Below, piece after piece: positions 4,551 to 19,192 of a stretch of DNA of 64,000 nucleotides (within the stretch, counting starts at the first letter, position 1; each line of letters starts with the position of its first letter). The stretch lies in NCBI GenBank assembly GCA_027382625.1, contig JAJKFJ010022030.1:1-64000 (forward strand), given 5' to 3'. Position numbers and translations under genes: made by a program. Under the pieces are notes generated by a model that saw only the letters and a program-made list of their open reading frames with translations, ran no database searches and was not told the DNA's origin. This DNA is from Tetmemena sp. SeJ-2015. Taxonomy: Eukaryota; Ciliophora; Spirotrichea; Sporadotrichida; Oxytrichidae.

Positions 4551-4745
4551 TCAGCTTTAATAAGTTCCATCGAAAATGAAAGTTTCTACAGTTACGTATC
4601 TCCTTTGTTGATATTCTTGCAATTTTATTGCTGGTTTATAAACTCCTTTTTTATCTTATCTAATTTGGCAGTTTAAACTACATTTACGAAAGAAAAATTC
4701 TTGTTAAGCACCCCTAATTACGAGGTTGCAAGTGTAATATTTAAA
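4551..4745 (-). pseudogene. Remnant of the kinase-associated C-terminal domain
   Basis: The translation TLATSQLGV..AKLDKIKK, then after a one-base slip in an A-run GVYKPAIKLQEYQ and VETFIFDGTY before TGA, matches the last 65 residues of the two kinase genes that follow (7.7 and 15.2 kb). Nothing upstream of it is recognisable. It appears to be the decayed tail of a third tandem copy, or a single stray MDS. Confidence 0.6.
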
Positions 4746-4759
4746 TTTTATATATTGGG

Positions 4760-7690
4760 TTTGCATTTTTTTTAAAAAAATTTGTACACTTCAAATAAAA
4801 GAAAATTTCCCAAAATTCCGGATTACTCATTAAAAAATTTTATTTTAATTTCTTTAATTTTCTTTTTTTATCCTTGAGGTTTTTTTTTTAAAATAAAAGG
4901 CATTTTTAAATGAAAAAAAAGCAAAAAAAATTATTTAAAAATTTTCAATTTGTATTGAAATAGATGAGATTGAGGTAATTAATTAAGTAAGTAATTTAAC
5001 TTTACTCCTTTAACACACTATTTAGAATAGAAATATTTATTTTTCAAAATTTTGATAATGGGGATAATAAACATAAAAAGCTTCCAGTGTAGTAGTATTC
5101 TTCATTTTCTCTTAGTAAATAAAAATATTCTAAGATTTACCTCAAAAATTTCAAATCTTTTTAAAAATAAAACTGAGGACTAGTTTCTTGTCAGCTGATT
5201 ATAATCAAAATATCTTTTTAAAAACGGTAATTTTACCTCCTACCTTGCTTGACTTGTTCAATCACTTAGAAGTAGTTGCTGTGCTTAAGTTGAACTAAGA
5301 TGCTTACTGTGCGACTTCTGGGAATGTGAGCTCAAGACAACATCTGAACGTAGGCTTAAAAACTAGGAGGAACACAGCCAAGAGGTATTGCTCAGATGAA
5401 ATCAATGTCGTCTTTTCAACTTGAAAAGGTATCTTTTTCTCTGGTCTTAGTCTTTAATTGAGGGACACCTCTCGATTAAAGGTATGAGTTGAAATCTGGA
5501 ATGAAGTAGCCTGGTAATGGCCGGGCCAAAATTTGATGGCCCCAGAAAATTTGGGTCGGAAATTGTTGGCTTTCTTGGGTAAAGGGGTCAATTGTATGTT
5601 GCTATTATTTAAGGGGTTTAAAAAATTTAAAAAAATTTTTAACTAAATTAGCCATAACTCATCACACCCTATAAGAATACAAATTTTATTGGCTCTTTGG
5701 GCTACTTGCTTCTAATATATTGGTTTTAATTTTTTAAATTTTAAATTAATTTTTCTAAAAGGGTTTTTAAAAATTTTAAAAATTAAAGTAAAAGAGAAAT
5801 TTAAAAATTTAAAATTAAGAAAATTTAAATTTTTTTTAAAGTTTTAAAAAGATCCTGACAAAAGGGGAAAAACACATTTTTAAAATTTAAAATGCTTCTA
5901 CGATGGCAATAAAATAATTTCATCTAAACATTTCAAGCTATTAATACTTTTGGCATTTCGCATTTAGATTCTATTAAGTGGGACACATAAAAAACTTAAG
6001 AATAACTATAATATTCAGAAGGAGTCTATACTTAACAGCAAGGAAAAAGAACCTGCGAATGGCACTCAAACGCATTCAAACAAACTTCTAATAAATTAGG
6101 CCTTAAGTGGGGGTCTTCACGAAAATCTGATAGCCGCCTTCTCCATTCATAAACACAAATAATTTTAACGATAGATCATCAACCTATTCTTATAACTCAC
6201 TTGTGGATAAGTAATAAAACGTAAGTTCTTAGCTATTACTGAAATTAGGCATATAAATTTCGGAGATAATTATTTTATAGATTACAGCAGGTGGTTAGAT
6301 TCAAGTCAAACTTTTATGATTAAATAGATTGTGTTTTAAAAATTTTCTATATCAAGAGATACTCCATTAAATAAAGATTTATATTTAAATTGGACTCAAA
6401 ATCTAACTTTAAAAGAATATTGATATTTTACAGTTATCTTTTTAATAATCATAATAAAAATTATTTGCTAAATCAAAATAAATTTTAGCTGTAAATTTAA
6501 TTTCTATTTAACTTTTTAAATTTTATATAAAAATAATTTAGTAAAATGAAGATAAATGAATTAACTTGTTAAATATGAGGAAGAGCTGATTTAATTTAAA
6601 TTACTATAGATTTTAATACGAGAAATAAATATTTAAAAGTTCAAAAATTTTAAGCTCTCATTGATTTCTTTTATTTATTAAATATCTTCAATTGTTAAAT
6701 AAAAAATTAAGTCTAATTTTTAAATAAATAGAGGACTTTCTTATTCCTTTCAAAAAATTTACATAGGATGGTAATTAGTTTTCTTGATCAATACAATAAG
6801 TGCTGGTTTTGAAAAATGATTACTAATTTTACATTCTTAATATTTTACTTTACCTTTCAAAAAATGCTTCCAAAGATAAAATTTTTAATCCCTTTACTCT
6901 TATAGTTTCCTCCAATAACCAAAAATAAAATAGCTAAATAAAGTAGCTTTTCTTCTTCTAATCCTCTTCCTCTCAAATATATAAATCCAAAAATTTTTTT
7001 AAATAAAGTTGAGTTTCCTTTTTTTAAATTTATGGTTCCTTAAAGCTTCATATGGACAGTTTATCAAATTGGATGTATTTAATAACTTTTTAAAGTAAAA
7101 ATATACAAATGAGTATTATATTTAACTTTAGTATCCAAAATTATTATATTTATATTAGAATAATTAATTATAATTAGATTTTAAAACCAATAAAGAAATA
7201 TTTAGTCGAAAAAAACAATTTAATCAGCATTCTAATTTAAAAATTCTTGCACTTTTAATTTCTAAACTTATGGATCTAAAACATATCTAAAGTTATTTAT
7301 TAGTTGGACAAATTTAAATTAAAAAATGTCAATTATATTACTTACGCTTTGAAAGATTTATTTTGAGTCATGATAACATTCTTCTGAGCAAGATAGATCT
7401 TAATTGTGTCTTAAAATTTTTAAGAATAACGTATCTATAATTAGAGGATAATTGGAATAAGAAAGTTCTGACATCAATAAGTGATAATAACTAAAGTTTT
7501 AAAATATTTTGATAGTATTTAGTAGTATACTACATTCTATCATAATTTTGAAAGTTGCAGTTCAGTGAAATTAGGATCTCTTTGCATATTTTTAAGGCGG
7601 AAGGAAATGTTAAAGAGTTCAAAACTTAAATAATTTTTTTCTTCAATATGCAAGATAACGAGAAATTCCATTTTATAAAGCTTAAATTTA
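4760..7690. other. AT-rich stretch with no recognisable gene
   Basis: Mostly A/T runs (for example 4,770-4,960 and 5,620-5,860). One island at about 5,230-5,570 is richer in G/C and open for about 100 codons on either strand, but matches nothing I know. The rest shows no supported coding signal. Confidence 0.5.
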
Positions 7691-7701
7691 TATCCTAATG
7701 T

Positions 7702-10700
7702 TCAGCTTTCATAAGTTCCATTGAAAATGAACGTTTATACAGTTTTGAATCCCCATCTCTAATATTCTTACAACTTAAATCCAAGTTTATAAGTTCCTTT
7801 TTGAATTTTATCTAAATCAACTGTCCTAATCACATCTTTCATATAAAAATCCTTGTCAATCTCCCTTAATCGTAAAGTAGCAAGAGTATAAAATGAAGCG
7901 CTTTTATATTGCTCATCAGTCATATTTTTATCATAATCGAAAACTACAAATAGGAGACGAAGAGTTCCAGTTCTACTAGAGTACTCGTTTGAAATTTTTT
8001 CAACTCGCATTTCAATCATGGTACCTTATGATTTAATTGTATATCCAAGTTAGCCCGTCATAGTTACTTTTTCTCTATAAATTTCAATTGGTTTTTTAAA
8101 CACTGATGAATCATCTCTTAACCTCCATTCAAAATTCTGCTTCGAGTAGAGCTTCATGACTATGATGTGCCTGCATCCGTATTCCCCTATATCTTTCCTT
8201 TCGAGTGTTTACTTAAAGTCATGGAAATAGTATCCTGGATCTAGAGTTTCCTTGAACATGTATTCTGCAATTATATATCCTGCAGCATATTCATATTAGT
8301 CTAGATCTTTAAAAGGTGAATAAGGGACTGTCCATAGTTATATCTTCATATCATCAAAATGTAATTTTAAAGTTAAATTATTTAAATAAAAGCTTTAAAT
8401 TAAAATGTTTTTCCTTATGTATTATAGGTAAGATACGATTTGTTTATCAAGGGTTATTATCATTAAAATAAAAGTGAGATATTTTCATTAAGACAACTGA
8501 ATAAATTAGGCTAATTAAAATTAATAATCAAATTAGTTTAGAAAATGAAAGAAATGCATAAAGAAGTCGCTCTCACTTATCTCTCTATAAAGTACGACAT
8601 AAATCTTCGGTAAGTATAAAAATCCAAGTAAACCTTTTTTATTAAATAAGCTTTAGAGCTTTTAGTGAATAGTTTAGCGATATTTATTTGTATTTCCCAC
8701 CATAACTTTCATAAACATAGTTAAAAAATTTGATCAGAGAAATAGACATTGCTTTCGCAAAGGTCTAATTCATCATGCATTTGAGATGCAAAATAGAAAT
8801 CTAAAAAGATAAATAGGTAGAATGAGTCCTCGGAATTTGTGCAAATACCTCCTTTGGTAAATATACTTAAACTTAACCTAAACTGTTAGTGTAAAGATAT
8901 TCAGAAGGGCTCTGTCAATAATCAAAATGAGATTAAGTTCTTAAACTCAGAATCAAAAGATGAATAAAAGATAGAATTAAGAGAGAACATGTGAACGCAC
9001 ACTTCAAATACCTCGCAAGTAGAAAAGCTTTATGAAATTTGCATTTTTGAAAAATTGCGCTTCACGATAATGTAATCGTATCTATCCCATACTATATGTA
9101 TATTAATGTTGCAAATTAGTAAATATTAACTTAAAAACATTTTTCTTCCTTCATTATTCTTCTTATGCTATTTCTAATCTTTATTTGCTACCTTCAAATT
9201 TAATTAAATTATAGAAAAGAGAGTGGATATAGACCAGTATTGAAGCCTGTGAAACAGCAATGCTCCCAGGATAAATCTGATTGAATCTGAATTAATGAGC
9301 TCGTCAGTAAAGATAATAAAATCCAATAAGGAGAAATGAAAGTTGGTAAAATTACAAAGCGTACGCAAGCTGAAAGAAGTCAGGATATACTGTTTAGATT
9401 AAAGTCTTTGCTAGATATAATTTTATGCAATCAATAATTCACTTAATTGAGAAATTGATAATCTTCCTTGACTATATGGAACTTCAAGAATCTAGTTTAC
9501 TTACCTAAATTATTTATCTTATTTCGACTTTCACATACAAAGTTGATCTTTTTTGCTAAGTTTAGTTCATTATGAGTTTTTAAAAAAATGCCTATGGGAA
9601 GTCTAGATTTATGAGCTCAGTCGATTTCACAACTTAATGGGGGAGTGTTTTAATAGCTATTTTGTAAAAGTATAAATTGCACAAAAATATTTTGTGGGCT
9701 TATGTTAATTTTTTACCTAATTATTTTTTTGCACATTTGTGAATTTTTTATTTAAGCGCTGAGATATTACTTGTTATTGGGCTCTTAATTTCAAAATCCA
9801 CATTTTATTCTTTTACTATTGATCAGACACAGATTCTTCTTATCTATATTCAAAGAAATTGATAGAGATATAGAAGGGCAAAGGATTTACATTGGAACTC
9901 TCAATATTTTTAAGTTTGCTTTGATGTCTTTTATTCTCTATTAAATCTTCTAACATGTCTGCATCTATCTCTTAGAGCAAATTTAAACTGCCATTTGATG
10001 AATTATGAATTTTTAACAAATAAATTTAGCCTTTAAGCGTTTAAATAAGTTATCTTTATGCTTTAATTTATTTACGAGAATAGGACCTGAATTTTGTGTG
10101 CAAGTATTCGATATCTTATCAGCACTAATAGTGATAGTTTAATCTTGAATATTAAAGTTGTATCCAGTCATTCCTTAAATTTTTAGTGTAATTGGAGTGT
10201 CCGAGAAGGTCTATCTTTTTATCCTAAAATCCTTTAAATTCTCATTTTTGAAATCTAAAGAAAGATTCAATTTTTTAAAGGAGTTTAAAGCAGGTGACCC
10301 AAATGATAGATTTGAAAGGCTGCTGTCATTATCTGAATCTTAAGGGCTCTCAATATTTTATTTTTTTAACATCTCCAAAAGATCTTAAGCAGAGGGTCTT
10401 AAAATACGATCTACTGTGAGCATTTTTGAAATAATTAACACAATTTATATATGGAATGGATGAAGGTATTTTATTCCAGAAAAAATATTCGCATAGTAAG
10501 GGATAAAATACTTCAGAATGCATATTTTAATTATAAATATTGAATGTACATTTTTTTCTTATCTTTTTATAAAGATCTATTTTATTATAGGATAAATATG
10601 ATTACATGATTAAGGTAAGCAAAACTTAATCATGATAGAGTTCTCAGGATGTGTGATATACATTTATAAAATTAGAGATGGTTTAAGACATTGTCTTTTT

Positions 10701-13700
10701 TAGTTTAAAGATGGAGTCAGCATAACAAGATTATCTTTAAAAACATGAGCACCACCTCCTTATAGGAAGTGATTGAAGTTAATTGCGTAAGTGGAATAAT
10801 TGGGATATAAAACCCAATCTTATAATATTAATCTTTACCTCTGAAATGGTGGACTCCAAGACGACTATCGACCAACTCGCGAAATGTATAAACTCGAAGT
10901 AGGATCTCTATGAGGCTGCATTGAGGAACCAGTTCTTTCTGCCTTGCATTAAGTCAAAGCTCGTCACCGAAGACTACATCATGAACGTAATCAATGGCTC
11001 TACATGGTGTCCTCACTATCGAGAGATCAGACTTCTTCCCTGCCCCGACCACCAACTATAGATGAACTCGTTTAGAAGCTGCAGGCAGTCGCAGAAAAGC
11101 TGAACAAGAATCTTGGCATAGACAAGTCTCACATGCCCGACAAAAGATGGATCCTGGCTCTTCTCTCCACGCATTCGCCGAAAGATGAAATCTTCGCGAA
11201 AGATTATGTCGCTCCAAAGGTACAGAGAGGGGACACAATGTATCGCACCGTTGATTTTGGCTCCTACCTTCTTGGAGGGATTGCCACAATCGCAGAAGCG
11301 GGGCAAGGTGCTGAGGCTGGGTTTCGCTAACAAAGGGAAGGCCACTTTAAAGTACATGCGGCTAAGGGAGGCTCGGAACAAGATCCAAAATCAGATCGAG
11401 AAGGAGAAGGTGGAAATGGAAATGCGGAGGCAGAGCAAGGCTAAGTTCAGCGAGAAGTTAGCATTCACACAGCAGCAACCGGCGACCAAGGAGAGAACAC
11501 CTGCCAAAGGGAAGGCCATACAGTGATCAGACCGAGTGGCCACTAAGCAATGAGAGCAACGTCCGGTAGTGTGAGCGAGCGATAGCTTTAACTTAAGTTT
11601 AATTTAAATTTTAAATTGCATCTTTGAGTATGTGCTCGGGAGGGGTAGGGATGCAAGTATTAGTTAGATGGGAGACCGTGGTCTTCCTCCAGTCTTGCTT
11701 GAGCACGGACCAGAGCCGTTCGATTGGGTTGAGAGAGCAACTCTTGTGGATGGATAGATTGTCCATGAGAAGGACGCTCCCTAGTGAGAGGTGCGGAGCG
11801 TGCTCGGTGAGGAATGCGAGGAAGTGCCCGAGGTTGGTGCTGCCAACGAAGGTCTTGGAGTGCAGAGGCCTCCAGTCTCGCTGATAGCTCCGATAATAGT
11901 CATAGAATTGCCGCGCGTGCTGGGAATTTGAACTTTCATGCTCTCCTTGAGCAAGCTTCGTTTGGGAGACTGCCACGCGTTGAAGGTCGACTCGTCAATG
12001 AAGACCAAGTGACTGCCCTCGGAGATCCACCGGGTCACTCGCTTGTAAAAATCCTGCTGCCTCTCCTGAGCCTCCCGCTTCTTCTCCTCCTTGCGTATGT
12101 AAGCGTATCCAGCAGCGCGGTACTTAACTCCATGCGTCTGTACACTTATCTTAGCCCGAAAGTCGAAAGCAGTGGTATCCTATAGTGGAGGTGGAGGTAG
12201 TGGCAGCGCTGCTCCAGGTTGAGATGGGTTGTTTCGGTCTCCGGGGAGAAGAGGCCGGCGTCCTCTCTTGCTCTTGTTGACCTCAACCGTGTAGTTATTC
12301 TCGCGCCAACGCTGAATTATCATATTAACCGCGCCTGTGCGGAGTCCAAGAATATTTGCAACTGCAGGATAGGTATGCTTGGGATGCTTGTCCGAAGAGA
12401 GAGATCCATATCTTAGATAAACTGCAGAGAGCTATTGCTCGTAGGATATTACCTGCCGAACTCTCAGCCTGAATGGCCTGGCTTTCTTGATAGCCTTCGG
12501 TTTAATCTGAAGGAGCCTACTCTCCAAGTAGGGTGTGAGGTTCATGCCAGGAATGTGCAAATGTGAAATCTGCTGTGCGAGAAGGGAAGAGTAAGTAGGG
12601 TCGAAATCCTGGAACTTCCGCTTCCGCGTTTGTCGCTCTTTGAAGATTCCATTTAGAATAAGAATTGATTATATTTGTAATAACGCAAATTAATGACAAT
12701 CGCTTCCTATTAGACTGAGTTATAGTTTTTTCTCCGAGCTTAGAGTAATTGCTCTCTGTTGAGAAGTGTGAGAGTTATATTCTTCTGTATTTTGTAATCA
12801 GAAAAGGTTTTGCTTGTGAAAAGTGAAGATCATGTACTTGATGTTGCTAAAAATACGTGAATTCAAACATACTTTTGTAACACTTTGACCTATACAGCGA
12901 AGATGAGTCACTATTGATTGGGAGGGATATCTTATTTGTCCTAAAAGCTAGCCTTCTCGTCTACCACCTCGAAATTTTATAAGTTGATGTTGTTGATGTA
13001 TTGTTATATTGGTCGTACTAGTAGATGTGGTTGTTGTTTATGTAGTCATTTAATTTAAGCCTATTTTTAAATCGTAATATATTGGGAACTATTAAGCAAT
13101 GATATAATTATTTTCGACGATACAACCAGCATATACCCTCTATATTACTTTAATTCATTAATGATATAATTCATTCTTAGCTCTTGGCTATGAAATTTAG
13201 GTAAGAAGGTTATTTCAGCTTAAAAAAATCGCTTAAATAAAGAATGCCTATAAATTCGTGAATATATAATTTTAATTGTTAAATTCGTAAAATGATAATT
13301 AGAAACAAAAAAATAAAATTGCTATTCTCTATCTTTAAATTCGTCAGATAGGATTATTTTCCTCACAAAAATCAATCGGCATTTGATATTTTAAAAGTTG
13401 ATTTAGCATAGTGAGATACAATATTTGCAAAAATTATTTGAAGAAGAATCAGTTAAAAAGAAGATTTCATAAAAAGGAAAATTTATCTCTGCTCATATTA
13501 TATTAACGCTTTTCAAATATAAAAAAAGATTTTATGAAATAAGATTTTTTACTGAGTCGCTACAAAATGTGGGAGGCGTGTATTCTCCATTTTTAATCTT
13601 ACCCATTGAAAAATAATTGGAGGCAAGAAAAGGATGCTTGCCCTCAACCATATAATAAAGTATACATCCAATAGCCCAGATGTCCACCTTATAATCATAA

Positions 13701-14658
13701 CTCTCCCAATTAAGAATTTCTGGCGCCATATAAACCTTAGTTCCAGCGATTTCAAAAGTAAACTACTAGGATTCTAAAAACTTTGCCAACCCAAGATCTG
13801 CTATTTTTATCTCACCTTAGTTATCAAACAAGATATTCAAAAATATTTTCAATTTAAAATTTAATTTTATTAAGGTAAATTAAGAAACTATTTAAGTGAA
13901 GAATAAGTAAATGGCATTGATATTTAGTTCATTATTTCTCAAGTACTAAACTTGGAAAACACTGTCATCAGAATGTCTGATTGCTTAGAGTTTGGTTTCT
14001 GCTTATCTTTGTAAACAGTGAAAAGGGATGAAATTGTGAGAAAATACCGAAATCTGCTAAAAACGCTCTGCGATGCTAGATGTTCCTATTCCAGTTGCAA
14101 GATTTTATATTTTTCATTGATATCATTCGTCCATATGGCAGTATTTTGAGCTTAAATTAAATTATTTCAATTTATCAAGACTTATATTGCCTCAAATTTT
14201 AGTCTTCAAAGAGATAGATGGAGGCAATAGATACCTTTTTAAATTACTTAATTAAAGGAATTTTATTGTTTATTAGTTGTTTTATGATTGTCAGGCTTGA
14301 TGTCTCTGTGAATCATTTTTTAGGAATGGCATTCATGAAGTCCGTTGAGTAACTTTTCGATATATTTGATTGCTTCACTTTCTTCTACTCAGCCTTTGTC
14401 AATTAACTGTTGAAGAGTTCCATTTGGGCAATACTCCATTACTACATAAGGTGGCTGTAAAGAGGAATCTATGTAGCGGATGACATTTGGATGGTCAATA
14501 TTTTTCATAGCTTTAATTTCTGTCATGATTAAATCCATTTTGACGGCATGAAATTCCTTCATCGCAAGGATCTTATTGTCTGAAGTTCTTTCCACTTTGT
14601 AAACAGTCCCGAAAGCCCCACTCCCTATTTTTTCTAACCTTTTGAACTTTATTTCCAT
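7702..14658 (-). CDS. Serine/threonine protein kinase 1 with C-terminal duplicated domain, split over 7 kb of germline DNA
   Basis: MDSs run right to left: 14287-14658, 13535-13837, 10064-10438, 7702-8367. The first gives the Gly loop (GSGAFGTVYK), AMKEF with the ATP lysine, hinge MEYCPNG and HRDIKPDN. The second gives ADLGLAK (DLG for DFG), MAPEILN and DIWAIGCILYY. The third gives MLTVDRILRPSA and the first C-terminal repeat (GYNFNIQDQTITI). The fourth gives IQLWTVPY, the second repeat (GYTIKSQGTMIEMRVEKISN) and TFIFNGTYES before TGA. Pointers are AAT, TTATTTCA and AAATTA. The start is placed by comparison with the neighbouring paralogue. Odd: an in-frame TGA at 14389-14391, between hinge and catalytic loop, where the paralogue has a sense codon, so this copy may be dead. 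Related to kinase 2. Confidence 0.7.
8368..10069 (-). other. Candidate 1.7-kb IES, pointer AAATTA (kinase 1)
   Basis: AAATTA lies in the same codon phase at both edges, and excision links NSGPILVNKL to HFDDMKIQLW in frame. The join adds about ten residues relative to kinase 2, and six-base AT repeats are common here, so the exact pointer is uncertain. The interior is AT-rich with no recognised gene. Confidence 0.5.
10846..11526 (+). pseudogene. Transposon accessory ORF (about 22-25 kDa), frameshifted
   Basis: ATG at 10846 opens a frame (LAKCINSKQDLYEAALRNQF..) whose G/C content is far above the flanks. The reading switches frame near 11,065-11,095 (into KLQAVAEKLNKNLG..) and again near 11,270-11,300 (into KRGKVLRLGFANKGKA, then a K/E/Q-rich basic tail). 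Two shifts indicate decay. It ends at TGA 11524-11526, directly against the stop of the convergent transposase. Its size and pairing recall the small ORF of Oxytricha TBE elements, but I could not confirm sequence homology. It sits inside an IES, so it would be eliminated from the macronucleus. Confidence 0.55.
11527..12665 (-). pseudogene. Tc1/mariner (IS630-like) DDE transposase, decayed
   Basis: A helix-turn-helix region (ILGLRTGAVNMIIQRWREN) followed by a basic linker leads to the DDE core: FIDESTFNAWQ (first D), LLMDNLSIHKS (second D), and SLNPIERLWSVLKQDW (E). About 350 residues, near 40 kDa. In-frame TAG codons read as Q (YEQQLSAVY, PPPPLQD), so it has adapted to the ciliate code. Decay: a one-base frameshift near 11,880, and a deletion that brings the second D within about 13 residues of the E, where this superfamily normally has 30 or more. 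No ATG is evident in the conserved frame. The stop TGA (11527-11529) abuts that of the convergent ORF. Confidence 0.75.
13838..14289 (-). other. IES of 452 bp, pointer AAT (kinase 1)
   Basis: Interrupts the catalytic loop exactly after HRDIKPDN. Joining at AAT gives [19 protein letters not shown], matching kinase 2, which has no insert here. Confidence 0.8.
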
Positions 14659-15235
14659 TTCAAAATTGGTAAGAATTAAATTCTCAGTGCGCAATTCTTG
14701 TCTAAATTAATTTATTTTAATTAAACTTATTGACAAATCCATTCAAAGAAATTAGTAATTAAAACTAATTTAGTATTCATCTAAAATTATAGAAAAATAG
14801 ATTATAAAGTATCTATTTTAGCTATATAGAACAATCAATTGCTTTTAAATGACTCATCAAAGATGCTCGAGGTCATTAAGGGAATTATAAATAAATAACA
14901 GGCAAATAAACTTAAATTAATAATGCTCAAGCATCATTTTCAATGGAGAATAATGATATTTCATTGGTAGTATCTAAAATATAATTATATAAATTTTTAT
15001 TTGACTTGAAGTTAGGCCTAAAAAATATTTTAAAACCTACAACATATTTTTCTAAATTCATCTCTAAGAACTCATTTTTACGGAAAATAATAAATGTCAA
15101 ATATGTGAGTTTAATTTAAGAAATAAAAATTTAGAAGAGTAAAATATTCATGATCTCTAATTGATATCTATTTTACTTTTTCCTCTCCAATTTTTTAATT
15201 ATCAAATGAAACATATTAACTCGAGTTTAAGCATA
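14659..15235. other. AT-rich spacer between the two kinase genes
   Basis: No supported gene. It separates the start of kinase 1 (14658) from the stop of kinase 2 (15236). Confidence 0.5.
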
Positions 15236-17886
15236 TCAGAGTGTTTCATAAACCCCATCGAAAACAAATGTCTCTACAGTGACAAATTCGTCATCCCTCA
15301 GCTCCTATAACTTGAAGGCTGGTTTGTAGCATCCTGCTTTTATTTTAAGTAGATCAGTCATCTCCTTTAAACCTGAGATGGACCCATCCTTCTCGATTTG
15401 GCCTAAGTCTAAAGTTCCTAAGATAAAGAAGTTTTGCTTCTTATATTCCTCTTCCTCCATATCTTCAATATTATCATTATAGAAAACAATTAAAATCAAA
15501 GACAAGTCTACAGTTTTATAATTTCCTTAATCTACATGTCGATGAGTCATCTCTTCTGTTTTATCCACTAGCTCCTTTCAATAAAAATATATGGAATTAT
15601 TATGCATGATACTAAGGGATTCAAAACTCTTTAATAGAATAGGAATAATATTATTTATTTAGAATTTATTTTTGAAATTAATCAAAAATATACTCTTGAA
15701 AGAGTGAGTTATTATTTATCTTGTTATTTAGCTCTCAAAATTAAAGAGAATTAGAGATTAAATGTTTGAATTTTTACTCTTGGTAATTAGTAAGTATGAA
15801 AAATTTATAATAAAAAGTTTCACTCATCAAAGAGCATCAAGAAATTTATTTAAGGACTAAAGATTAACTTTTGAGTGTAAATTTGTTTAATTAAAGTATT
15901 TTTATACTTAAAACGATTAAGTAAAATAATTAAACTTCAAAAGATTGATTTAGCTGTGCATAATTAATCAGAACTCAATTATATTCAACTTTTCATTGAA
16001 TTTTAACTTAACTTTTCTTATTTCTATTCTATATTTATAATATTGAAGACTACAAACAGTATGCGAAGTTTTCCTGTCTAATAAGAGTACAGATTGTTGA
16101 TTTTCTAAATTCTAATTTCAATTTTCTCTCCTTTCTGTTTCGTAGAATATCCTATGTTTCCTGCCATCTCTAGTTTTTCCTCGTAAATTTGAATAGGCTT
16201 TTCAAAGATGATATAATCCGTTCTACACCACTCTTCGTCAATTTATGATATCAGATTCATGAGTATAATATGCTTTCTACCACTTTTATTTGCAGGTTTT
16301 CTCCTCATAGTTCTACTAAACTCTTAGAAGTACTGATCTTTTTCCAAAGTTTACATAAAATCGTGTTAAGCTAATATATAACCTGGAGCACTCTTATACC
16401 ACTGCAAATCTTTACTTTCTTGATATGGGATTGCCCAAAGCTCTATCTTAATAGCGCCAGACTAACAATCACTCTTATTCATAATTCTTTCAGCTTGAAT
16501 CTTGACAGTCAACTCTCTATTGTTAAGAGAGTATCCACACTTTCCTTCGAATAGTAATGAGGATTTAGAAGCAGAGATTTTCTCTAATGATTCTTCATTT
16601 ATGTCTTAATTTTCATCATTCTACTCTGAGTCTTTATTTTCTTCTAGTGATTACTCAACCAAGAGGTTCTAATCTTCATCCAGAGATTGTTATACATCAT
16701 CGTTGAAGTTCATATTTTCATCAACTGGCTACTCATCCTATAGGTTTTTAGTTTCTTCAATTGGTTGCTCATCCTAGAGTTTTTCCTTTTCTTCAATTGG
16801 TTGCTCATCTTAGAACTTTTAATTTTCTTCAATTGGTTGCTCAACCTAAAGATGTTCGTTTTCTGTAAGTGATTGCTCAACCTAAAGATGTTCGCTTTCG
16901 GGAAGTGGTTATGCATCCTCGAGCCTATTATTTTCTAGAATGGGTAATGTATCTTCGAGCCTTTTTTTTCCTTCAAGTGGCTACAAAACTTAGAGGTTAT
17001 TATTTTCTTGAAGTGGCTACAAAGCCAAGAGGTTATCATTTTATTAAACTTGCTACTGAGGTATATGTTTTTAATTAAACTCAAGTGGTGGTAACAAGAT
17101 TAGATTTTAGAAAGCTAATGACTTCAAATATTCTGGCTTTTTGTAAAACATTTGAATAATCTCTCTAATATCTTTTGCACTGGGCCTCTTTTGAGGATCA
17201 ACTTAGAGCATACTTGAGATTATGAAAGCTGCATCTTCACTACAATTCTGAGGATAAGGGTAAAATCCAGTTTTTATATTTTCATAAAATGACCCACTAT
17301 TAGCTTAAAAAGGGTGAAATCCTTCAATTAAGTAGTAGAGAATGCAGCCTACAGCCCAAATGTCCACTTTATAGTCATATCTCTTTCTGTTTAAAATCTC
17401 AGGAGCCATATAGAGAGGAGTTCCAGCTTGCTTTTAATAGCTTGACTTAGATTCTAAGAACTTGGCAAGTCCCAAATCTGCTATCTTTATTTTCCCGTTT
17501 TTATCAAACAAGATGTTGTCTGGCTTGAGGTCCCTGTGGATTATATTTTAAGAGTGACACTTCTGTAATCCGCTTAGAATTTGCTTAACCACTCTCAACG
17601 CCTAATCTTCATTTAAAGGTCCTTCGAATATTCTATGCTAAAGACTTTTATTAGGGCAGTACTCCATAATGATGTATGGTGGCTTGATGTTAGAATCAAT
17701 GTAGCGCACCACATTTTTGTGATCTATCTTTTGCAACGCTTAAATCTCAGAAGTAATCATCTTCATATCTAGTCCAAAAAATTCCTTCATCGCAAAGATT
17801 TAATTGTCTGATGTCCTTAATACCTTATAGACCATCCCAAATGCACCTTTGCCTATTTTCCCTTTCCTCTTAAATTTTGGTTGCAT
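15236..17886 (-). CDS. Serine/threonine protein kinase 2 with 12-residue repeats and C-terminal duplicated domain
   Basis: The start at 17886 leads directly into [15 protein letters not shown] (ATP lysine), [11 protein letters not shown], hinge [25 protein letters not shown] (DLG for DFG), [19 protein letters not shown] and RPSAKDI, a complete kinase domain of about 265 residues. Then comes a run of about eleven 12-residue repeats of the form EQPIEENxKLQD, rich in E and Q. The C-terminal region has two related beta-type repeats ([18 protein letters not shown] and [18 protein letters not shown]) and ends [13 protein letters not shown]. One IES (15473-16044, AATATT). It lacks the in-frame TGA of kinase 1 and reads open, so it is probably the working copy. 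Target unknown. Confidence 0.85.
15473..16044 (-). other. IES of 572 bp, pointer AATATT (kinase 2)
   Basis: Joining at AATATT turns RILFVVFN into [18 protein letters not shown], in frame and matching kinase 1 (LLFVVFDYDKNMTDEQYK). The right end of the excised DNA also reads [11 protein letters not shown], a look-alike of the same strand, so an alternative boundary is possible. Confidence 0.65.
16640..17060 (-). repeat. Coding minisatellite, 36-bp unit
   Basis: About eleven imperfect 36-base units within kinase 2 encode a 12-residue motif ([24 protein letters not shown] and variants). They form an acidic, Q-rich linker between the kinase domain and the C-terminal domain. Only the first and last units have diverged far. 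Confidence 0.8.
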
Positions 17887-19192
17887 TATGAAAATTGGTA
17901 AGATAAGATAATCTCAATTGAGTCTATTATCAACTATAAAATCATATATTCCTCTTTTAATTAAAGTCCACTTTAAAATTGTCTTCATTAGATAAAATGA
18001 ATGCTTAATAAGTTAAATCATTTTTATTCCAGTTAAGATGTTTAAGTGTTATTGCATTTATTTTCTTCTAATTTTAATATGTGAGAATGTCATTTAACTT
18101 TAGATTATAAATTAAAACTTATCCACAAACAATATTTCTCGAATGTTTTGAGTATGTAATTTTTGAATAGAGTACATTTTTAGATTTATATTTTTTTTAA
18201 TTCAGTATTTCTTTGAAAATTAATTCTCATGGCAGCATTTAAAGTTTAGTAGCCTGCTTTTCTATTTTACTCTTAAAATAAATTGAGCGGCCTCTATTTT
18301 GCATCACTTGGCTTGTCTTTTAGCTTTCAAGTTAAGTAGAAATCGGGTAATGGTAGTTTTATTTGAGAAAATACGCTTTTTTTTAAACATTTATATCTTC
18401 TTTTTTATTTCCTCTATATTAAAAATAGAAGTTTAAATTTTTTTAGTATGAATAATACTGGTGGGACTTCTCCTAATTCCTTTCTTCCTCATTAAAAAAA
18501 GGTTTTTTTTAATCTCTCATTTGGCTGCGTTTTAAGAAATTTTTTAATAATTCACGAGCTTATAAATTATCTAAATAATTTTATCCCCAAAAATCTTATC
18601 AATAAAAAGACAATATTTATATTAAATACTTACTTTTTAAAAAAATATTCCTACTAAAGTAATTAAATTTAATTAAGCCTTTTTATATAATCTTTTTATA
18701 TAAAGAAAGACTTTAACACAGGAAAATCTCATCATTATCCAATGGTTGAAAATAGAGGTTAAATTTCCAAGGTAATCAAAATTTTTTACAAGCGAGAATA
18801 TTAAATAAAATTCTATAATCTTTAAATATGACCCATTAAAAATAAATATATCCTTAGAGCAATCAAATTTAGAATAAGGAAAATGCAAATCCTCTTTGCT
18901 AAACCTATTTCATTGTAACATTATGATTTATTTAAGAGTCGTTTAATTTCTTTTCTTAAGTTTATTGCTTGGAGATATTGAATTTCATATAAAAATATTT
19001 ATTTCTTGCTGCAAATAAATTAATTTGTAATCTAGAATAAATATATTGTAACTTAAATTAAAAGATAGAAAAAGTTTCCCCACAATTAAAGTTTAGTGCT
19101 TAAAATTTGTTGATTATTTGCAAAAATTATTGATAAATAATTAAAATTTGCCTTTTCTTGCAAATTATCTAAGAAAGATTCAAAATATCGGC
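17887..19192. other. AT-rich stretch, no gene seen
   Basis: About 1.3 kb, AT-rich with T and A runs. Open frames here are short and show no family signature. Confidence 0.5.

Follow-up and report, generated by a model that had tools for sequence, protein, structure and literature searches.

Do transposons make internal eliminated sequences (IESs), or do they settle in existing ones? This standing question is raised by a protein kinase gene in the 64,000-nucleotide stretch of DNA analyzed here (the window; contig C2975, positions 1 to 64,000, within a 146-Mb genome of 5213 contigs). According to a preliminary description, a Tc1/mariner-type transposon sits in a 3.1-kb IES of this gene, and the locus was taken to illustrate the idea that IESs arise from, or host, transposons. 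The observation is confirmed, whereas that interpretation is supported in part. We consider, with a probability of nearly 0.9, that the locus as a whole is explained by an old IES that is cut at a pointer repeat, later received an insert resembling a miniature inverted-repeat transposable element (MITE), and then received the transposon within the MITE. Directly seen are the pointer, the seamless join, target-site duplications (TSDs), terminal inverted repeats (TIRs), the split MITE, and a paralogous IES that is free of inserts.

A pointer-flanked interruption of a kinase gene

The 8-bp repeat reported in the preliminary description is present at both edges of the interruption (IES 2), reading TTATTTCA in the sense of the gene and TGAAATAA on the forward strand. 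The interior spans 10435–13534, placing its start 4 bases away from the position originally given (10439). When one copy of the repeat is kept, the junction reads ...FCSDSVKNLISKMLTVDRILRPSAQDLL... in frame under translation table 6, and the kinase C-lobe becomes SVKNLISKMLTVDRILRPSAQDLLEML with no break, as had been claimed. The flanking edges are AATCTTATTTCATAAAATC at the 5′ side and TTAATTATTTCAAAAATGC at the 3′ side. Two features expected of an IES are found, namely a direct-repeat pointer at the two coding junctions, of which one copy is kept, and a restored homologous frame. Restoration was judged against the uninterrupted neighboring kinase (633 aa, 15985–17886), which served as the ruler for the interrupted gene; one in-frame TGA lies elsewhere in the latter. 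For roughly 200,000 position pairs drawn at random from positions 8350–19000 of the window, exact matches of at least 8 bases at a single fixed offset have a frequency of 3.3e-4. In the developing macronucleus, recombination at this pointer most likely eliminates IES 2.

The window probably comes from the germline (micronuclear) genome of a spirotrich ciliate, in all likelihood a hypotrich. Its genes are read with TAA and TAG as Gln, and a C4A4 20-mer occurs 67 times genome-wide, nine times at base 1 of a contig, which are the two features looked for in a hypotrich host. A C4A2 20-mer has no occurrence in the 5213 contigs. Note that the reversed-pattern control for the C4A4 20-mer carries no information, since the pattern is identical backwards. 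C4A4 telomeres together with this code fit spirotrichs, and probably hypotrichs, without singling the latter out. An internal array of C4A4 telomere repeats was observed at C2828:3805–4156.

Three layers within the interruption

On contig C3496, a paralogous kinase has the pointer 8-mer at both edges of its own interruption (L044:172 and 791), an interval of 619 bp. The IES that this interval encloses matches window positions 10447–10595 (73% over 153 aligned positions), 13151–13359 (70% over 211), and 13429–13483 (80% over 56); these matches skip both the MITE and the transposon, which the paralogous IES does not contain. The IES pieces differ from those of the paralogue by 27%, 30%, and 20%, values near the synonymous differences of the coding pieces, which comprise macronuclear-destined segments (MDSs) with pS values of 0.302 (MDS3) and 0.259 (MDS4). 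Of these, MDS4 is constrained (dN 0.084, dS 0.317) and MDS3 less clearly so (dN 0.24, dS 0.386). Because the paralogue has the same pointer and a homologous IES that differs about as much as synonymous sites do, the IES predates the gene duplication. Moreover, because the paralogous interruption lies at the same place, is partly homologous, and lacks the transposon, the IES is the older component and hosts the transposon rather than having arisen from it. The transposon ends (10763 and 12709) are also far from those of the IES, so that an origin of the IES from this element is not supported. Paralogues on C1620 and C1155 proved uninformative on IES 2, since the kinase match stops before the junction. 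When the transposon and the MITE are taken away, an AT-rich interruption of about 540 bp is left.

The preliminary description had noted a GC-richer block with AT-rich DNA still flanking it. Indeed, the transposon has a GC content of 48.6%, versus 20.5% and 22.3% for the two IES sides and 31.5% for the MITE-like repeat. The AT-rich flanks are present but consist of two things, the old IES and an interspersed inverted-repeat element of about 609 bp that had been missed. Upon removal of the transposon and one TTA, the joined flanks align to 36 other places in the genome (69–73%), and all 36 of these long matches run straight over the empty-site join. This search gave 41 rows, four of them from C2975, C1090, and C385 and one a 33-bp fragment, with 40 of 312 candidates scored.

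The inverted repeat of this family, TATAGGTTGAATATGAATAC ... GTATTCATATTCAACCTATA, is found with small differences in copies other than that of the window, as judged from an alignment of the left ends of 7 copies and the complete right ends of 5, window included. An exact 20-mer of the TIR has 99 genome matches (52 and 47 by strand), versus 0 for its reversed control, and 22 facing pairs span 598–665 bp, 18 of which fall at 623–632 bp. The element is thus short, of uniform length, bounded by inverted ends, and present in many copies, as is expected of a MITE. Its longest ATG-initiated open reading frame (ORF) is 197 aa in the copy on C890 and 83 aa in the window; shuffled copies give a median of 128 and a 95th percentile of 196. 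The window copy, 609 bp long, is diverged: two copies with 96.8% mutual identity match it at 71.5% and 71.7%. Because the MITE is split by the transposon, the transposon came after it.

The transposon is likewise repeated, as many genome copies have common ends near 10759 and 12714. Its TIR arms (26 nt, 81% complementary) are common to other copies. We found at least 78 matching pieces by nucleotide search and at least 110 by transposase protein search, self included in both cases; these counts are lower bounds, with 40 candidates scored in the former and 102 of 1139 in the latter. Twenty loci (L013–L032) were fetched for comparison, and both ends are visible in 17 of them, or 18 with the window. 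Left and right TWA are equal in 16 of the 18, with the same W in CTWA-TAGG on the left and CCTA-TWA-G on the right. A C precedes the left end in every copy showing it, and a G follows the right end in all but L021. Not all of these copies are independent, given the flanks shared between some loci and the apparent mis-joins at L013 and L014. Most simply, the target is C-TWA-G and TWA is duplicated, the element proper occupying 10763–12709. Both the DDE_3 domain and the TIRs expected of the IS630/Tc1/mariner superfamily are present, whereas the TSD is TWA (TTA or TAA) instead of TA. TBE (ANT) and Bogo (TAA) have likewise been reported to duplicate three base pairs, and the authors, in the portions of their accounts used here, still assign both to this superfamily.

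The two-ORF transposon of the preliminary description is a decayed shorter form, in which both the transposase and the accessory ORF are broken. Its transposase has an unmatched stretch after about residue 139, a frame change near 11865, and a 20-residue deletion that falls between the second catalytic D (D310) and E (E344). Because of this frame change and deletion, the copy is dead. In contrast to it, an open 407-aa relative at L015:4007–5230 matches DDE_3 with E = 3.4e-26 and has D232, D310, and E344, with 33 residues between the last two (DD34E spacing is approximately 34). At least 19 of the 110 protein-search pieces extend from residue 9 or less to 405 or more with no TGA; these open copies go down to 44% identity and include some near-duplicate pairs. 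The accessory ORF(s) at 10798–11523 match no Pfam family above its cut-off.

Copies are found near 1.2 kb (L021, L022, L024, L025, and L026), near 2 kb (window, L017, L018, L019, L028, and L031), and at 5.4–5.7 kb (L015, L016, L027, and L029). The 5.4-kb form at L015 has a further ORF of 691 aa (L015:7071–9146) to which no Pfam family matched. A 5.4-kb span at L023:1155–6537 has 31% GC overall, versus 44–49% in the other measured copies, and so does not belong with these; about 3.4 kb of AT-rich DNA interrupts the copy there, perhaps foreign sequence from a further nested insertion, or the result of a mis-join. Of the 13 and 47 proteins that searches with the transposase turned up, those with a name are environmental or bacterial IS630-like, and comparison with solved structures gave 11 weak, unrelated matches only (E of 0.27 and up).

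The layers suggest the following order of events. The kinase gene would have been interrupted by the old IES before the gene was duplicated. The MITE-like element with TA ends would then have entered the IES, presumably after the duplication, and the IS630/Tc1-type DDE transposon would have entered the MITE at a C-TTA-G site and subsequently decayed. During macronuclear development, recombination at the 8-bp pointer would remove the IES and restore the kinase frame. The inserts would have been tolerated because all DNA between the pointers is expected to leave together.

Table 1 Features of the interrupted kinase gene and of IES 2, in window coordinates.
Feature	Position	Strand	Basis or remark
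Protein kinase gene with C-terminal domain, four coding pieces	7702..14658	-	tblastn pieces, in-frame join
MDS1	14658-14287	-	tblastn
IES 1	13838..14286	-	separates MDS1 from MDS2; pointer seems to be AAT (by eye)
MDS2	13837-13535	-	tblastn; Pkinase PF00069 found on MDS2
IES 2, including both pointer copies	10427..13542	-	taking out 3108 bp (one pointer copy included) would join the C-lobe in frame
Pointer TTATTTCA, gene-upstream copy	13535..13542	-	
Pointer TTATTTCA, gene-downstream copy	10427..10434	-	
Old IES sequence, one side	10435..10585	.	homologous to IES of C3496 paralogue
Old IES sequence, other side	13145..13534	.	partly homologous to IES of C3496 paralogue
MITE-like element, ~609 bp, interspersed inverted repeat, split (10586-10762 + 12713-13144)	10586..13144	+	TA at ends (by eye)
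IS630/Tc1/mariner-superfamily transposon, 1947 bp, TIR TAGGAAGTGATTG...	10763..12709	.	
TSD TTA, left	10760..10762	+	within C-TTA-TAGG
TSD TTA, right	12710..12712	+	within CCTA-TTA-G
Decayed transposase	11530..12641	-	tblastn with open 407-aa relative; DDE_3 fragment, E = 8.3e-7
Decayed accessory ORF(s)	10798..11523	+	tblastn match to 123-aa and 155-aa ORFs of long relative; frame change
MDS3	10434-~10080	-	tblastn
IES 3	8350..10079	-	gap between MDS3 and MDS4; inner edge approximate
MDS4	8349-7702	-	tblastn

Of 3257 matches in a protein search with the kinase, the 120 listed have identities of at most 41% and include no close named relative. The gene belongs to a cluster of related kinase-plus-C-terminal-domain genes and fragments at window positions 4551–17903, and the linker of the neighboring kinase carries 36-bp (12-residue) tandem repeats (16714–17056). 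IES 3 holds a different interspersed repeat of about 600 bp, from 8500 (the query start) to about 9100, which is found at many further genome places with 67–86% identity.

Alternative explanations and points of conflict

Several findings weigh against the layered history proposed above. An in-frame TGA occurs at 14389–14391 (MDS1, N-lobe residue 90) in both C2975 and C1090, which are not independent because the two contigs are near-identical there; the kinase gene may therefore be a recent pseudogene, or the TGA may be a base error. A search of this assembly for a macronuclear contig carrying the join found none; the flanks match only C2975, C1090, C385, and weaker paralogous places. On the upstream side of its IES, the paralogue has a coding piece that is only 47% identical and is located at a contig start. 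TSDs are unequal at 2 of the 18 loci, L014 and L022, the former a mis-join judging by its flanks and the latter sharing its left flank with L032. Finally, the window MITE copy is about 0.36 substitutions per site from the two compared copies, which are 0.032 apart. If the inserted MITE was of the form that is common today, its age would exceed that of the kinase duplication, and it would be expected in the paralogue; a divergent MITE subfamily, or loss from the paralogue, has to be assumed.

The TGA and the missing macronuclear join are also what would favor plain transposon damage, in which the transposon, and a MITE as well, struck a kinase gene or pseudogene in ordinary DNA that undergoes no programmed excision. 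We regard this as improbable, because an AT-rich interruption remains even without the inserts, its flanks are exact 8-mers, and its removal restores the frame. Furthermore, the C3496 paralogue is interrupted at the same place with the same 8-mer, and the gene has two further interruptions, with short repeats at their edges seen by eye only. A large intron, by which the 3.1-kb segment would be removed from the RNA, would equally interrupt the coding sequence and keep the frame upon removal. However, GT/AG is absent at the repeat, the nearest such dinucleotides (by eye) lie within conserved coding sequence, and an 8-bp direct repeat is expected at the edges of excised DNA, not of a spliced segment. 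The intron was rejected on this boundary sequence and seems very improbable. A different question is whether the outer IES is itself a decayed older transposon, an idea compatible with the layered history and thus not competing with it for probability. This is the general model for ciliate IESs (PMC3464196 and PMC9942856, in the sections used here), but we consider it rather unlikely for this IES, which has an 8-bp pointer instead of a bare TA or TWA site and at whose ends no TIR was noticed in the inverted-repeat check. No repeat match beyond C385 and C1090 was found either, a weak argument given that 40 candidates were scored per search and the C3496 IES itself was unlisted.

It is very hard to credit that the window contig is chimeric at the transposon and that C385 and C1090 show the true arrangement. 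In favor of such an artefact, the match of each contig to the window breaks off precisely at a transposon end: C1090 follows the right flank at 99.98% identity and C1754 (99.4%) beyond it, while C385 follows the left flank at 98.5% and C2461 (97.7%) beyond it. Yet C1754 and C2461 each carry the element with equal TSDs, as does the window. The two flanks of the window make up a single MITE, a single IES, and a single kinase, so that the window is the coherently assembled version, and the chimera was rejected on the split MITE and IES common to both flanks. We also rejected C1090 and C385 as true second alleles of other structure; mis-joins are likelier, given how well their far sides match C1754 and C2461, and ectopic recombination could alternatively account for both. 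The left flank of C385 could represent a second haplotype. One transposon flank in common with the other not was seen for L013 (C1090), L014 (C385), L022/L032, L021/L024, and L017/L024; across the assembly, such contigs were probably mis-joined at this repeat, or else they arose by ectopic recombination.

Relation to known ciliate elements

Among ciliate elements that can be compared, the Tec elements of Euplotes have ends and a TA duplication that differ from the TWA found here. They share a Tc1/mariner transposase with the present element and have three ORFs, and Euplotes reads UGA as Cys (PMC9797194), whereas TAA and TAG specify Gln here. This and the following comparisons extend as far as the consulted parts of the cited papers.

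Transposons in IESs have been reported from Oxytricha and Tetmemena (PMC9797194), Paramecium (PMC3464196), and Blepharisma (PMC9942856). The TBE elements of Oxytricha and Tetmemena, also Tc1/mariner, resemble the present case in the C4A4 repeats and TAA/TAG = Gln code of the host, a DDE transposase accompanied by more ORFs in the long form, a 3-bp TSD, and copies in IESs (PMC9797194, PMC4724952). However, telomeric C4A4 is present in most TBE TIRs and TBE duplicates ANT, whereas the TIR here, TAGGAAGTGATYG, is without C4A4 and TWA lies in C-TWA-G; TBE membership was rejected on these grounds. Merely 27 Oxytricha TBE pointers are conserved with non-TBE pointers of Tetmemena (PMC9797194), and in contrast to that case an insert-free paralogous IES is visible here. 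Anchois and the nested IESs of Paramecium also involve an IS630/Tc1-type element, with TIRs apart from the IES ends in 6 of 28 IESs, and these non-coinciding ends raise the possibility of insertion into existing IESs (PMC3464196). Paramecium IESs are TA-bounded, unlike the 8-bp pointer and insert-free paralogous IES described here. Bogo of Blepharisma has the same TAA/TTA duplication, and Blepharisma MITEs (BogoMITE, "MITIES") show occasional nested insertion in unrelated IESs (PMC9942856). Nevertheless, Bogo is a Pogo/Tigger (DDE_1) element with a C-rich TIR, whereas the present element is DDE_3 and lies in a MITE in an IES with an 8-bp pointer.

A more speculative suggestion, which we hold to be doubtful, is that these copies represent an undescribed germline-limited IS630/Tc1-type family, in which the C-TWA-G target is fixed and many transposases, about 407 residues long, are open, that stands in place of the TBEs of Oxytricha, may supply the elimination nuclease, and may use IESs and MITEs as safe harbors. 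The C-TWA-G target, TWA duplication, and non-telomeric TIR do set the family apart from TBE, Anchois, and Bogo as those are described, and its open transposase copies could be assayed.

Although transposons in IESs are known from other ciliates, this locus is a well-resolved case with unusually complete stratigraphy. The order of its layers is largely readable from the insert-free paralogous IES with the same pointer, the landing of the MITE, and the splitting of the MITE by the transposon. Of the two paths asked about at the outset, it is an instance of the second, insertion into an existing IES.

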